Shown piece after piece: positions 13,954 to 18,938 of a stretch of DNA of 64,000 bases. Position 1 is the stretch's first letter. Every line of letters starts with the position of its first letter. The notes under the pieces are model-generated. The model saw nothing but the letters and a program-made list of their open reading frames with translations, was not told the origin of the DNA and made no database searches. The stretch is from Gemmatimonadota bacterium (GTDB lineage: Bacteria > Gemmatimonadota > Gemmatimonadetes > Gemmatimonadales > Gemmatimonadaceae). The position numbers and the translations under genes were made by a program. The stretch covers positions 186,001-250,000 of the forward strand of contig JAQBPX010000015.1 of assembly GCA_028287305.1 (NCBI GenBank). Direction: 5' to 3'.

Positions 13954-14898
13954 CTAGCGGTCGCGCGCGGCCACGTGCGCGCCGCCCTGCTTCCTCAGGT
14001 GTGGACTGGGCTCGTGACGGACGAGCTCATCGAGCTCGCGGGACTCGAGGTTCAGGTGGTACCTGGTGCCCACCACGCCGAGCCGCAGGTGGCTGAGCGT
14101 GAGCTGTCGCCCGAACTCGAGGTCGTCGGCGTTGTCGAACCTCACCGTGTCGCGTCCGTCGATGAAGGTCACGCCACCGGCGCCGCAGACCTCGCCCACG
14201 GCGCCATGCACCACGAGCGCCGTGTCCTCGTCGATGCCCAGCCCCATCAGCTCGGGATAGCTGCCGATCACCACGAACAGCCGCTGCAGCCGGCGACGCT
14301 GCGAGAAGTGCGTGTCGATGATGCAGTTGTAGCCGAGCAGGCCGAGGCCGGGCCCGATGTACTGCTGCACGTTGTTGCCTTCCTCGTCCATCTCGCCGCC
14401 AGCCATCGTGAGCTCGGTGCAGGCTGCCGCGCCGGCACTCGTGCCGCAGACCACGCCGCCGCGCTGGAAGAGCGCGCGAATCTGCCGCTCGGACTCGGTG
14501 CCGGCGAGCGTCGCCACGAGCTTGACCTGGTCGCCCCCGCCGAGAAAGACGGCGTTCGCGTCGGCGATGCGCGCGGCCAGCTCACGGTCCGCGCGCGCAT
14601 CGCCGCGCGTGATCTGGGGCACGCAGAACGTCTTCGCGCCGGCTTCGGCGAAGTCTTCCTCCCAGAGTGCCGCTGCCTCGAGCGGCACCCCGCTGGCGGC
14701 GGTGATTCCCACCACGCTCCCGTTGCCGCGTGCGTCGGCCAGGTGCATGAAGCTCTCGAACGCCTCGCCGGTGGTGCGCAGGGCCCCGCCGATCAGCACG
14801 AGCGTGCCGCTGGCCGTTGCGGAGCGGCTCTGCTCACTGCGCTGGATCGTGGGAGTGTCGCGTGCCGCGTCGTTCCTGTTGCCGCCGCGAGCGCTCAC
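13954..14898 (-). CDS. cphB: Cyanophycinase (S51 peptidase)
   Basis: Hydrolyses cyanophycin, the multi-L-arginyl-poly-aspartate storage polymer, to beta-Asp-Arg dipeptides. The 314-aa protein carries the S51 nucleophile elbow CGTSAGAAA (Ser154), the N-terminal LVLIGGAL strand, FLGGGDQVKLV and the IDTHFSQRRRLQRL block with the conserved His and Arg, and IGIDEDTALVV-like sequence (GLGIDEDTAL). The GTG start at 14898 overlaps the stop of the upstream CphA-like gene as GTGA, placing degradation in the same operon as synthesis. There is no signal peptide, so it acts in the cytoplasm. An isoaspartyl dipeptidase gene is not adjacent. Confidence 0.94.
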   Translation of the reverse strand: MSARGGNRNDAARDTPTIQRSEQSRSATASGTLVLIGGALRTTGEAFESFMHLADARGNGSVVGITAASGVPLEAAALWEEDFAEAGAKTFCVPQITRGDARADRELAARIADANAVFLGGGDQVKLVATLAGTESERQIRALFQRGGVVCGTSAGAAACTELTMAGGEMDEEGNNVQQYIGPGLGLLGYNCIIDTHFSQRRRLQRLFVVIGSYPELMGLGIDEDTALVVHGAVGEVCGAGGVTFIDGRDTVRFDNADDLEFGRQLTLSHLRLGVVGTRYHLNLESRELDELVRHEPSPHLRKQGGAHVAARDR

Positions 14899-15980
14899 TC
14901 GCGCGGCGCCCCGCGCCGGTCATCGAGGCGCTCGCGATGCGTCTCGGCCGCCACCGCGGCCGCCACCTGGCTGGCGATGGGCAGCGTGCGGTCCAGTGGG
15001 CCGCCGTCGCGCCGCTCGCCCCCGAACTCGAGCACGATCGAGTCGTTTTCGACCCATCCCGCGGCGCGCGCGTGCTTCTTGTCCTTGCGCGTGACGCGGT
15101 CGTCGCTGGCGAACGCCGCCACGCGACAGTCCAGGTCGCGCGCGTAGTCCTGCAGCTCCCACTCGTGCGCGGGGCAGATCACCAGCCCATCGCGGCGCAC
15201 CGCCTCCATGAGCGTGGTCATCAGGCGCTGCGCGCGCTCCGGGTCGCGGTAGCGCTCGGGTACATCCACTGGCTCGATGTCGAGGATGATTGCCATGTCC
15301 GATGAACGGTAAGGCACACCCCCAAGCAGCAGGAACCCCGGCGCCACATCCACGATGAGCGCCGCCGGGTCACCGAGCCGCCGGATCATCTCCGCCTGCG
15401 CCTCGGCGCGCCCGCTGCCACCGATGATCCCGCAGAGCACGTGCTGGCGCAGCGGCGGCATGTCGTGCGACTCGGCCATCGCCCGCAGCTCGCTCACCAT
15501 GGGCGCCACGCCGTCCAGCGTCCCGGCGAAGGCACGCTGCACGGCCTGCAGCGCGAGCGCGGCGGCGCGCAGCCCCACCAGCTCGTGCTGGTGCTCGAAC
15601 ACCAGCGTGTACTCCCCCTCCACGTCGCCGCCGCGCGTGCGCCCGTAGCCCACGTCGTGTCCCATCATGGTCTGCAGCTCGAGCGCCACGTGCTCGATGA
15701 TGTGCGGTGCGTACGTGCCGCGCCGCAGCCGGATCACGAACCCCCCGCGCTCGCCGATGCTGCAGCGATGCTCCGCCAGTCCCGGCATCGCGGCGAGCAG
15801 TGATTCCGTCATGCCGGGGACGTCGGCGGAGGAGATGTCCTCGTACGCCCCCACGTGCAGGTCCATGCGCGTCACGGGACGGCGCGACCAGTAGTTGATC
15901 CCGCGCGTGGCGTGCAGCGTGGTCATCCGGATTTCCGTGGCCGGGTCATGCAGCGACACGGCCTGCGGGGCAGTGCTCAC
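14895..15980 (-). CDS. Degenerate cyanophycin synthetase-like protein lacking ATP sites
   Basis: A 361-aa paralogue of CphA that keeps its N-terminal domain (about 20-160: ATRGINYWSRRPV, VPGMTESLLAAMPGL, IIEHVALELQTMMGHDVGYGR begins the match). It has lost the whole ATP-grasp domain. The remainder aligns with the Mur-ligase half of CphA, but the P-loop GTNGKTTT is replaced by GGSGRAEA (187-194) and the DVGIVLNVSADHLGL core by MAIILDIEPVD. It therefore should not ligate. GTG 15980 starts 4 nt after cphA; ATG 15926 is an alternative that better matches the CphA N-terminus. It sits between cphA and cphB. It is probably a structural or regulatory partner, by inference only. Confidence 0.8.
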   Translation of the reverse strand: MSTAPQAVSLHDPATEIRMTTLHATRGINYWSRRPVTRMDLHVGAYEDISSADVPGMTESLLAAMPGLAEHRCSIGERGGFVIRLRRGTYAPHIIEHVALELQTMMGHDVGYGRTRGGDVEGEYTLVFEHQHELVGLRAAALALQAVQRAFAGTLDGVAPMVSELRAMAESHDMPPLRQHVLCGIIGGSGRAEAQAEMIRRLGDPAALIVDVAPGFLLLGGVPYRSSDMAIILDIEPVDVPERYRDPERAQRLMTTLMEAVRRDGLVICPAHEWELQDYARDLDCRVAAFASDDRVTRKDKKHARAAGWVENDSIVLEFGGERRDGGPLDRTLPIASQVAAAVAAETHRERLDDRRGAPRE

Positions 15981-15984
15981 GAGC

Positions 15985-18663
15985 TCACTGTCCCGGCGAG
16001 TGCACGGCATGGGCGCGCACCTGCGCGAGCGTCGCCGGCACCTTCTCGGCATGGATCACCATGATGTCGTCCTCCTGCATCATCGCGAAGCCGCGCTCGA
16101 TCGCGTTGGCCTCCCCCTGGACGAACTCCACCTGGCCTTCCGTCATGCCACCCTCGAGCAGCCCTTCCTTGATCAGCGCGCTGATCTCGCCCGGCTTCCT
16201 GCCGCGCAGGTCCTTGTCTTCCTTGAGGATGATGTAGTCGAGCTTCGACGTGAGGCGCCCGGCGTTGCGGATGTCGTCGTCGCGCCGGTCGCCCGGCACG
16301 GTGAGCACCGCGAAGCGCCGCCGCGCCGGCATGCGGAGCACCATGTCGACCAGCCCGGCGATCGCCACCGAATTGTGCGCGTAGTCCACCACCACGCGCC
16401 CGCCCTCGCGAACGGGGATGATGTTGAGGCGCCCCGGCGTGAGCGAGGGCGACGGGAAGAACGACAGCAGCCCGGCGCGGATGTCGTCGTAGCGCATCCC
16501 CTGCACGTAGGCGGCGGCGATCGCGGCGAGCACGTTGTCGCGCTGGAAGCGCGCGGAGCCGCCCATCATCAGCGGCACGTCGCGCTCCGCCGCGATCGGG
16601 ATGCGGAGGCGCCCGCGCCGGATGACGAATGCGCCGTCTTCCATGCATGCCGCGATGCCGCCGCGCCCCACGTGGTCCTGCAGCATGGGACTCTCGTCGG
16701 CGTCGTCGCGCGCCGAGAAGAGCACGATGTCGCCGTGCGTCTTCTCGCGCATCGCGTAGACCAGCGGGTCGTCGGCATTGAGCACGGCGTGCCCCTCGCG
16801 CTTCACCACCTGCGCGATCACGCTCTTCACGTCGGCCAGCTGCTCCACGGTGTGGATGCCGCGCAGGCCGAGGTGGTCGGCGGAGACATTGAGGACGATG
16901 CCCACGTCGCATTCGTCGAAGCCGATGCCGGCGCGGAGGATGCCGCCGCGCGCCGTCTCGAGCACGGCGACCTCGATGGACGGGTTCGAGAGGATGATGT
17001 TCGCGGCGAAGGGGCCGGTCATGTCCCCTTCCATCACGAGGCGGTTCTGGATGTACACGCCGTCGGTGGTGGTGTAGCCCACGCGATGGCCGTTGTTGCG
17101 GAAGAGGTGCGCCACGAGGCGCGTGGTGGTGGTCTTTCCGTTCGTGCCGGTGACCGCGATCACGGGGATCGTGGACTCGACGCCGGGTGGGTAGAGCATG
17201 TCCACGATCGGCGCGCCCACGTTGCGCGGCGTGCCCTGCGCCGGGTGCGTGTGCATGCGGATCCCGGGCGCGGCGTTTACCTCGAGGATCACCGCGCGAT
17301 TCTCGCGGAAGGGCACCGAGATGTCGCTCGTCATCACGTCGATGCCGGCGATGTCGAGGCCCACCGCGCCGGCGGCCATCTCGCAGGCCGTGACATTCTC
17401 GGGATGCATCTCGTCGGTGCGGTCGATCGAGGTGCCGCCCGTCGAGAGGTTGGCGGTCGCGCGCAGCGGCACCACCTCGCCCGCCGCGGGCACGAAGTCC
17501 ATCGAGCGGCCGGCCAGGCGCAGGTGGTCGACGGTGAGCGCATCGGCCGCGAGGTGCGTGAGAACCTTGGTGTGCCCGACTCCCCGGCGCGGGTCGCGGT
17601 TGGCGTGATCGATCAGCGACTGGATCGAGTGCTCGCCGTCGCCGACCACGTGCGCGGGCACGCGCTCCGCGCAGGCCACCACCTTGCCCGCCACCACCAG
17701 CACGCGATGGTCGTTGCCGTCGGCGAACTGCTCGATCACCACGCGCGAGCCGAAGGCCGCGGCGTTGTCCCACGCGCGGCGCAGCCCCTCCTCATCGTCG
17801 ATGCGCCCGGAGATGCCGCGGCCATGCGATGCATCGAGCGGCTTGAGCAGCACCGGGAAGCCGATCTCGTTGGCCACCTCGATGGCGCCGTCGAGTGTCC
17901 GCACCACGTCGCCTCCGGGCACCGGGAGGCCGATCTCGCGCAGGACGCGCTTCGTCTCGTCCTTGTTCTGCGCAATCTCGACGGCGATGGAACTGGTCTG
18001 GTCGGTGACCGTGGCCTGGATGCGGCGCATGTTGCGGCCGAGTCCGAGCTGCACCAGCGAACGCGAGTTCAGCCGGCGCACGGGAATGCCGCGACGCCGC
18101 GCTTCCTCCACGATGGCGAACGTCGAGGGGCCGAGCCGCACGCTCTGGTAGAGCGAGGTGAGGTCGCGCACCATCTCCGCGTGGTCGACGGGCGAGGCGT
18201 CGATGCAGGCGCGCACCAGGCGCACGGCCTCGTGCATGCTCTCGACGCCCACGACCTCCTCCTCGTAGGCGACGATCACCCAGGTGACGTCGGGATCGCC
18301 GGAGGCTACCACGCGGCCGAAGGAGACGTCGCTGCCGGCGAGGGTCTGCAGCTCGAGCGACACATGCTCGAGGATGTGGGGAATCCGCGTCCCCTCCCGC
18401 AGGCGCTCGACGAAGCCACCGGCGGTGCCGCGCGTGCACGGGTGCTCCTGCAGCGTGGGGAGCGCGGCCATCAACCGGTCGCAGAAGCCGGGGATCTGCG
18501 ACGAACGGACTTCGTCCAGCGCGCCGAGTCGCACGTCGCAGGCAATGACCGGCGCCAGGCGCCAGTAGTTCGGACCGCGCAGGGCACGGACGCGAGTGAC
18601 GCGCAGCTGGCTGGGGTCGAAGCGCGTTTCGCGTTCCGGGGCGACGGGAGCCGTGGTGGTCAC
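15985..18663 (-). CDS. cphA: Cyanophycin synthetase
   Basis: Polymerises aspartate and arginine into cyanophycin, using ATP at two ligase sites. The 892-aa protein has the N-terminal domain (RALRGPNYWR, about 26-160). Its ATP-grasp domain (about 215-490) has KPLDASHGRGI and the metal-binding EVNAAPG at 461-467. A Mur-ligase domain follows, with the P-loop GTNGKTTTT near 506 and the ETARGGILRAGIGFDECDVG block. Both active sites look intact. GTG 18663 is taken as the start because it gives a normal CphA length; no clear Shine-Dalgarno is present. It is the first gene of a cphA, CphA-like, cphB operon. Storage of N and C as cyanophycin is the likely role. Confidence 0.95.
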   Translation of the reverse strand: MTTTAPVAPERETRFDPSQLRVTRVRALRGPNYWRLAPVIACDVRLGALDEVRSSQIPGFCDRLMAALPTLQEHPCTRGTAGGFVERLREGTRIPHILEHVSLELQTLAGSDVSFGRVVASGDPDVTWVIVAYEEEVVGVESMHEAVRLVRACIDASPVDHAEMVRDLTSLYQSVRLGPSTFAIVEEARRRGIPVRRLNSRSLVQLGLGRNMRRIQATVTDQTSSIAVEIAQNKDETKRVLREIGLPVPGGDVVRTLDGAIEVANEIGFPVLLKPLDASHGRGISGRIDDEEGLRRAWDNAAAFGSRVVIEQFADGNDHRVLVVAGKVVACAERVPAHVVGDGEHSIQSLIDHANRDPRRGVGHTKVLTHLAADALTVDHLRLAGRSMDFVPAAGEVVPLRATANLSTGGTSIDRTDEMHPENVTACEMAAGAVGLDIAGIDVMTSDISVPFRENRAVILEVNAAPGIRMHTHPAQGTPRNVGAPIVDMLYPPGVESTIPVIAVTGTNGKTTTTRLVAHLFRNNGHRVGYTTTDGVYIQNRLVMEGDMTGPFAANIILSNPSIEVAVLETARGGILRAGIGFDECDVGIVLNVSADHLGLRGIHTVEQLADVKSVIAQVVKREGHAVLNADDPLVYAMREKTHGDIVLFSARDDADESPMLQDHVGRGGIAACMEDGAFVIRRGRLRIPIAAERDVPLMMGGSARFQRDNVLAAIAAAYVQGMRYDDIRAGLLSFFPSPSLTPGRLNIIPVREGGRVVVDYAHNSVAIAGLVDMVLRMPARRRFAVLTVPGDRRDDDIRNAGRLTSKLDYIILKEDKDLRGRKPGEISALIKEGLLEGGMTEGQVEFVQGEANAIERGFAMMQEDDIMVIHAEKVPATLAQVRAHAVHSPGQ

Positions 18664-18938
18664 GATGAGAGTGGGAAGTGGGGACTGCCGGGAGGGGCAA
18701 GCGCCATGCCTTGTGCCGCAGCGCACAACGCAATGTGTGGCGAATCGAACGGTAGCGTGCAAAGCGCCACAAAACGGATGGTGCTGCGCATCACATAAGG
18801 TTTTCCAACCCGTTGTGGCACAAGTGCTTGCGTTGATGGCTGCGTCTGGCATGGCTGTAGCCATTCGCCATGGTGCAGCCACCGCGCGCCGTGCAGGCGC
18901 GGTCGACGGACCGACGATGGTCCCCGAGGCCCAACGAC
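18664..18938. promoter_or_regulatory. Divergent promoter region of cphA and a GGDEF gene with operator-like palindromes
   Basis: This 275-bp gap separates two divergent genes. It contains TTGTGCCGCAGCGCACAA (18711-18728), with 6-bp half sites, and TTGTGGCACAA (18814-18824), both using TTGTG/CACAA halves. They could be binding sites for one regulator. No promoter hexamers can be assigned with confidence. Confidence 0.4.

Follow-up and report, generated by a model that had tools for sequence, protein, structure and literature searches.

The window, a 64,000-nucleotide stretch of a Gemmatimonadota contig, carries on its reverse strand a gene for a 361-aa protein placed between cphA and cphB. The genes, together with the domains and residues of the 361-aa protein discussed below, are as follows.

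15985..18882, (-) strand: cphA, cyanophycin synthetase 1, with the N zinc motif, ATP-grasp, P-loop and DH all intact
14895..15980, (-) strand: gene of interest, 361 aa, a CphA1 N domain plus a catalytically dead Mcore, without ATP-grasp (G) domain and without Mlid
15528..15932, (-) strand: N domain, residues 17-151 (PF18921, E 3.6e-36), of the endo-cyanophycinase type; superposes with SuCphA1 from residue 1
15690..15764, (-) strand: putative zinc site Cx19HxxEH, residues C73, H93, E96 and H97 (SuCphA1 C59, H79, E82 and H83); motif in all members, function from PMC9262961
15609..15635, (-) strand: R116 and Y124 (SuCphA1 R102 and Y110), cleavage-cleft residues kept in the 361-aa family and lost in the partner CphA
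14928..15455, (-) strand: Mcore remnant, residues 176-351, with a Mur-ligase middle-domain fold; ATP-binding and catalytic residues gone
15399..15422, (-) strand: degenerate P-loop GGSGRAEA, residues 187-194 (CphA GTNGKTTT); Walker lysine changed to Arg in 20/21 members
15264..15269, (-) strand: V238-D239, where the M-domain catalytic pair D585-H586 stood, from aligned M-domain residues
15204..15206, (-) strand: E259 (SuCphA1 E607), an M-domain acid; Asp or Glu in 21/21 members and in 0/22 partner CphAs
13954..14898, (-) strand: cphB, cyanophycinase (peptidase S51), TIGR02069

The frame opens with GTG, contains no internal stop, begins 4 nt past the cphA stop and overlaps the start of cphB by the GTGA at 14895-14898; a sequence-only reading had described this CphA paralogue and its spacing, and the coordinates were confirmed. 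Both neighbours are genuine by curated models, the cphA product scoring 1103 bits with TIGR02068 (cut-off 850) and the cphB product 159 bits with TIGR02069 (cut-off 126.6); the true start of cphA probably lies downstream of the listed GTG. The 361-aa protein reached 165.6 bits with TIGR02068, far under the CphA equivalog cut-off, and its sole Pfam match was the CphA N-terminal domain, which the sequence-only reading had recognized. The Pfam search yielded no match to ATP-grasp, as that reading had also held, and none to PF08245; PF03575 and TIGR02069, the models for S51 cyanophycinases, likewise gave no match. The best solved relatives were CphA1 structures, aligned over residues 20-150. Because many antisense ORFs in the window are longer, the open frame alone is not evidence of a gene; that evidence is homology, 29 distinct family members and purifying selection. 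The earlier argument from an intact frame to selection was therefore right in its conclusion, which homologues and omega bear out, and wrong in relying on frame length.

All 29 distinct homologues came from Gemmatimonadota, except one on a contig of an unidentified bacterium, and the gene was found in 24 of 179 genomes of the taxonomic family. When 84,980 species genomes were scanned with the C-terminal half, a search that reaches close relatives only, matches came from Gemmatimonadota and one unidentified-bacterium contig alone; no relatives were found on viral contigs, and in plasmid records only CphA and N-M ligases matched. Wherever the contig reaches, cphA lies directly upstream (with a gap of 1.2 kb in L066), and in 20 of 22 loci cphB follows directly, whereas in L041 it is on the opposite side of cphA; in many loci neighbouring genes are separated by a few bases or overlap. 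The family had a single origin (support 100/99). For the closest pairs, pairwise omega was approximately 0.03-0.26 (N half) and 0.06-0.36 (C half); these values are rough, because dS approached saturation in several of the pairs. Purifying selection acts on both halves, and neither the lack of homologues nor the relaxed selection that the sequence-only reading had jointly named as a refutation was observed.

These data bear on whether the gene might be a functionless, decaying fragment of a duplicated cphA. Every ligase motif has been lost, and the rate of evolution in the C half is about double that in the N half, as such decay would predict; however, 29 members with open frames occupy the same place, omega is low in both halves, the zinc motif is invariant and the fold is confidently predicted, and the sole broken case, L068, has a broken cphA too. 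We regard decay as extremely improbable, and a pseudogene was ruled out by conservation and omega. In L068 (87-4779) both cphA and the 361-aa family gene are split into several frames, probably through sequencing errors.

The N-terminal half shares 39% identity with the N domain of the neighbouring CphA. A feature overlooked at first reading is that this half carries a complete Cx19HxxEH motif, spaced C73-x19-H93-II-E96-H97, with supporting residues H71, F81, R84 and E101 corresponding to SuCphA1 H57, F67, R70 and E87. The motif was present in 23/23 members first tabulated and in 29/29 distinct members found later; equivalents of H57, F67 and R70 occurred in 23/23, and that of E87 in 91%. In SuCphA1 (Synechocystis), experiment has shown that this zinc site is an endo-cyanophycinase, which cuts cyanophycin internally and slowly, mostly to tetramers, and so supplies primers; the isolated N domain, added in trans, works on a primer-dependent CphA (PMC9262961). 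The first description of this primer site, as a part of CphA1, dates only from 2022. Judged by its residues, the N half of the 361-aa protein appears to be an intact hydrolase domain. The sequence-only reading had suggested a passive polymer binder, a primer holder or a regulator without chemistry; given an intact and invariant hydrolase site, an active endo-cyanophycinase that makes primers or chain ends is the better reading, and a purely binding or regulatory role is less likely.

The C-terminal half, also unrecognized at first, corresponds to CphA Mcore alone. It aligned with the CphA Mur-type domain in local hhalign (84%, E 7e-6), whereas global hhalign gave a weak match, so that its identity as Mcore rests on the local alignment together with structure. 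Its chemistry has been removed comprehensively: the K499 position is Arg in 20/21 members, leaving GGxxR in place of the GxxGK[ST] P-loop, T500 is unconserved, the segment bearing T522 has been deleted, E558 has become Asp in 20/21 members, D585-H586 are substituted in every member compared (n=21), and the NADDP motif is replaced. Loss of the P-loop and the impossibility of ligation, both claimed from the sequence, are thereby upheld, and an intact but cryptic ATP site was ruled out, since every motif is replaced. The acid at the E607 position is retained in the family though the surrounding ligase residues are gone.

An AlphaFold2 model built from 17 family sequences without templates had a mean pLDDT of 88.7. 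The intact ATP-binding motif that the sequence-only reading had named as a refutation was not observed, the ATP site being gone in nearly every member compared. The model superposed as one body on SuCphA1 E82Q with bound cyanophycin (7txv) over 328 residues (3.4 A, Z 30.7), spanning SuCphA1 chain residues 1-710, with N joined directly to Mcore; Foldseek placed it on 7lg5 (TMq 0.74), and residues 176-351 of the model matched MurC/E/F with Z of 14-16. N and Mcore are thus predicted to be placed as in the synthetase, with the G domain and Mlid deleted.

Why a dead Mcore should be kept would be explained by three properties of CphA1: Mcore touches the N domain (PMC9427784), the N domain of SuCphA1, when excised, became soluble only after mutation of its M-facing loop, and polymer in the N-domain cleavage site is touched by S603 and E607 of the M domain (PMC9262961). 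By analogy, Mcore may serve as a scaffold for the N domain. The retained fold without chemistry would also suit a non-catalytic accessory subunit, docked on CphA or granules, whose zinc is structural and whose role is limited to binding or anchoring polymer. In the TeCphA1 tetramer Mcore makes contact with three Gcores, including those of other protomers (PMC9427784), which would offer such a subunit a docking surface, and the near-adjacent or overlapping genes suggest co-expression. However, the family shows no variation at the general base E96 or at the polymer-cleft residues, a constancy beyond what a structural zinc would require, and the N domain can persist without the motif, as in the L051 CphA and the N-M protein of the window's own genome. 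We consider an accessory subunit unlikely.

A complementary pattern was found in the partner CphAs, those adjoining the 361-aa gene. Equivalents of R102 and Y110, the latter a polymer contact in SuCphA1 (PMC9262961), occurred in 23/23 members of the 361-aa family versus 0/20 partner CphAs, and the E607 position in the partners was Ala in 20/22 and Met and Gln in the other two. R102, Y110 and the E607 acid are usual in CphAs of genomes or operons without the 361-aa gene, the E607 position there being mostly Glu, with some exceptions. When the N domain was scanned without preselecting positions, R102 and Y110 alone were conserved in outgroup CphAs and the 361-aa family and lost in the partner; six positions showed the reverse pattern, none of them a listed polymer contact. 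The sites are few, and by shared ancestry the complementary loss of R102, Y110 and E607 is a single evolutionary event. Partner CphAs retained Cx19HxxEH in 20/20 complete N domains, and a full hand-over of the cutting function therefore does not follow. A further polymer contact of SuCphA1, E90, is not conserved in the 361-aa family. The idea that CphAs of genomes without the 361-aa gene lack the zinc motif was rejected, as aligned sites were present in 8/9; most of these CphAs carry a two-residue insertion, giving Cx21HxxEH. A second full-length CphA in one operon-bearing genome (L051 1173-3656, G196:C329) has lost the N-domain zinc motif and has Gln at the E607 position.

Taking sequence and model together, we propose that the 361-aa protein is probably a separately encoded, trans-acting endo-cyanophycinase carried on a dead Mur scaffold. 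The N domain would bind cyanophycin across the zinc site (C73/H93/H97, with E96 as general base) and cut the poly-Asp backbone inside the chain, while the dead Mcore would keep the N domain natively folded and, through E259, add an acidic contact from the opposite wall of the substrate cleft. Short segments released by the cut would act as primers extended by the neighbouring CphA, the new chain ends would be shortened by the neighbouring CphB, and tight coupling of the three genes would keep supply in step. Hydrolase activity, metal, the scaffold role of Mcore and the physiological role are here what we infer for the protein. As the partner CphA keeps Cx19HxxEH, cleavage by its N domain may persist, which could make the free-standing copy redundant. 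It is conceivable, at somewhat less than even likelihood, that there has been a division of labour, in which one Gemmatimonadota lineage moved the primer-making cut from the polymerase into a dedicated trans enzyme on a dead Mur-ligase scaffold, the polymerase N domain losing cleavage-cleft contacts.

The position between cphA and cphB fits both priming and the making of ends, so that sequence does not choose between them. One form of the proposed trans-acting endo-cyanophycinase would be a mainly catabolic endo-cutter that, rather than making primers, opens chains in granules to the exo-acting CphB; its likelihood overlaps with that of the proposal as a whole, and we consider this form possible, though less likely than not. 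The gene directly precedes and overlaps cphB, and in operons of Deinococcus, Rhizobium and Sphingobium the same slot is filled by an isoaspartyl peptidase, a degradation gene; yet coupling to cphA is equal, and in L041 cphA lies between the gene and cphB.

Compared with known systems, the 361-aa protein shares with CphA1 (SuCphA1, 7txv; PMC9262961) the N-domain fold, Cx19HxxEH, the supporting residues, the N-Mcore arrangement, the polymer contacts S60, R70 and Y110 and the acid at 607, but it has no G domain or Mlid, its Mcore is dead, the E90 contact is absent and it is encoded by its own gene. CphA2, a beta-Asp-Arg polymerase of the CphA family (7ta5, 8fxi), has the same N and M folds but is the reverse case, with the N-domain motif absent (PMC9262961) and the M domain active. 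Proteins annotated as 'Mur ligase family' (Legionella adelaidensis WP_058462805; G000:C4) likewise combine N with a Mur middle domain and have no ATP-grasp, but keep the P-loop and are about 250 aa longer, the G000:C4 copy having no zinc motif. The Mur ligase middle domain shares its fold with the C half, where the P-loop and a PF08245 match are missing. Action on the cyanophycin backbone would be common to the 361-aa protein and CphB (peptidase S51), although the families are unrelated, with no S51 match; CphB uses a serine mechanism and is exo-acting. A search of openly available papers found no description of such a free-standing protein. If there has been a division of labour, cutting and building could be set separately through expression, which is not possible in the fused enzyme (PMC9262961). 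The existence in nature of such a free-standing cutter would demonstrate that the N-domain activity works as a separate enzyme and would test whether cutting serves priming or degradation. It would also give a soluble tool for making primer-dependent synthetases primer-independent, cyanophycin production in heterologous hosts being sometimes primer-limited (PMC9262961), and a clean case of a ligase domain retained as scaffold after loss of its chemistry.

Several related loci were noted. The genome of the window encodes a 614-aa CphA-like protein without an ATP-grasp domain (L070 7422-9266 (+), G000:C4), in which the N-domain zinc motif is lost and the P-loop and DH of the Mur part are intact; it is a mirror image of the 361-aa protein. 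On Legionella adelaidensis plasmid 19 (L089 6001-7869), an N-M protein with zinc motif and P-loop present and ATP-grasp absent adjoins a cyanophycinase and an isoaspartyl peptidase, in a stretch from which a full cphA is absent. Operons with the order cphB-cphA-'Mur ligase' occur in other Gemmatimonadota (L046, L048, L049, L050, L052) and in Ruegeria (L088); their Mur protein, of 540-620 aa, has an N-terminal extension of about 200 aa that begins like a diverged CphA N domain (RRLxGPNLW...). In L033, L035, L055, L056 and L060, a second, divergent cyanophycinase, with about 31-35% identity to the window CphB, is encoded close to the operon, on the opposite strand.
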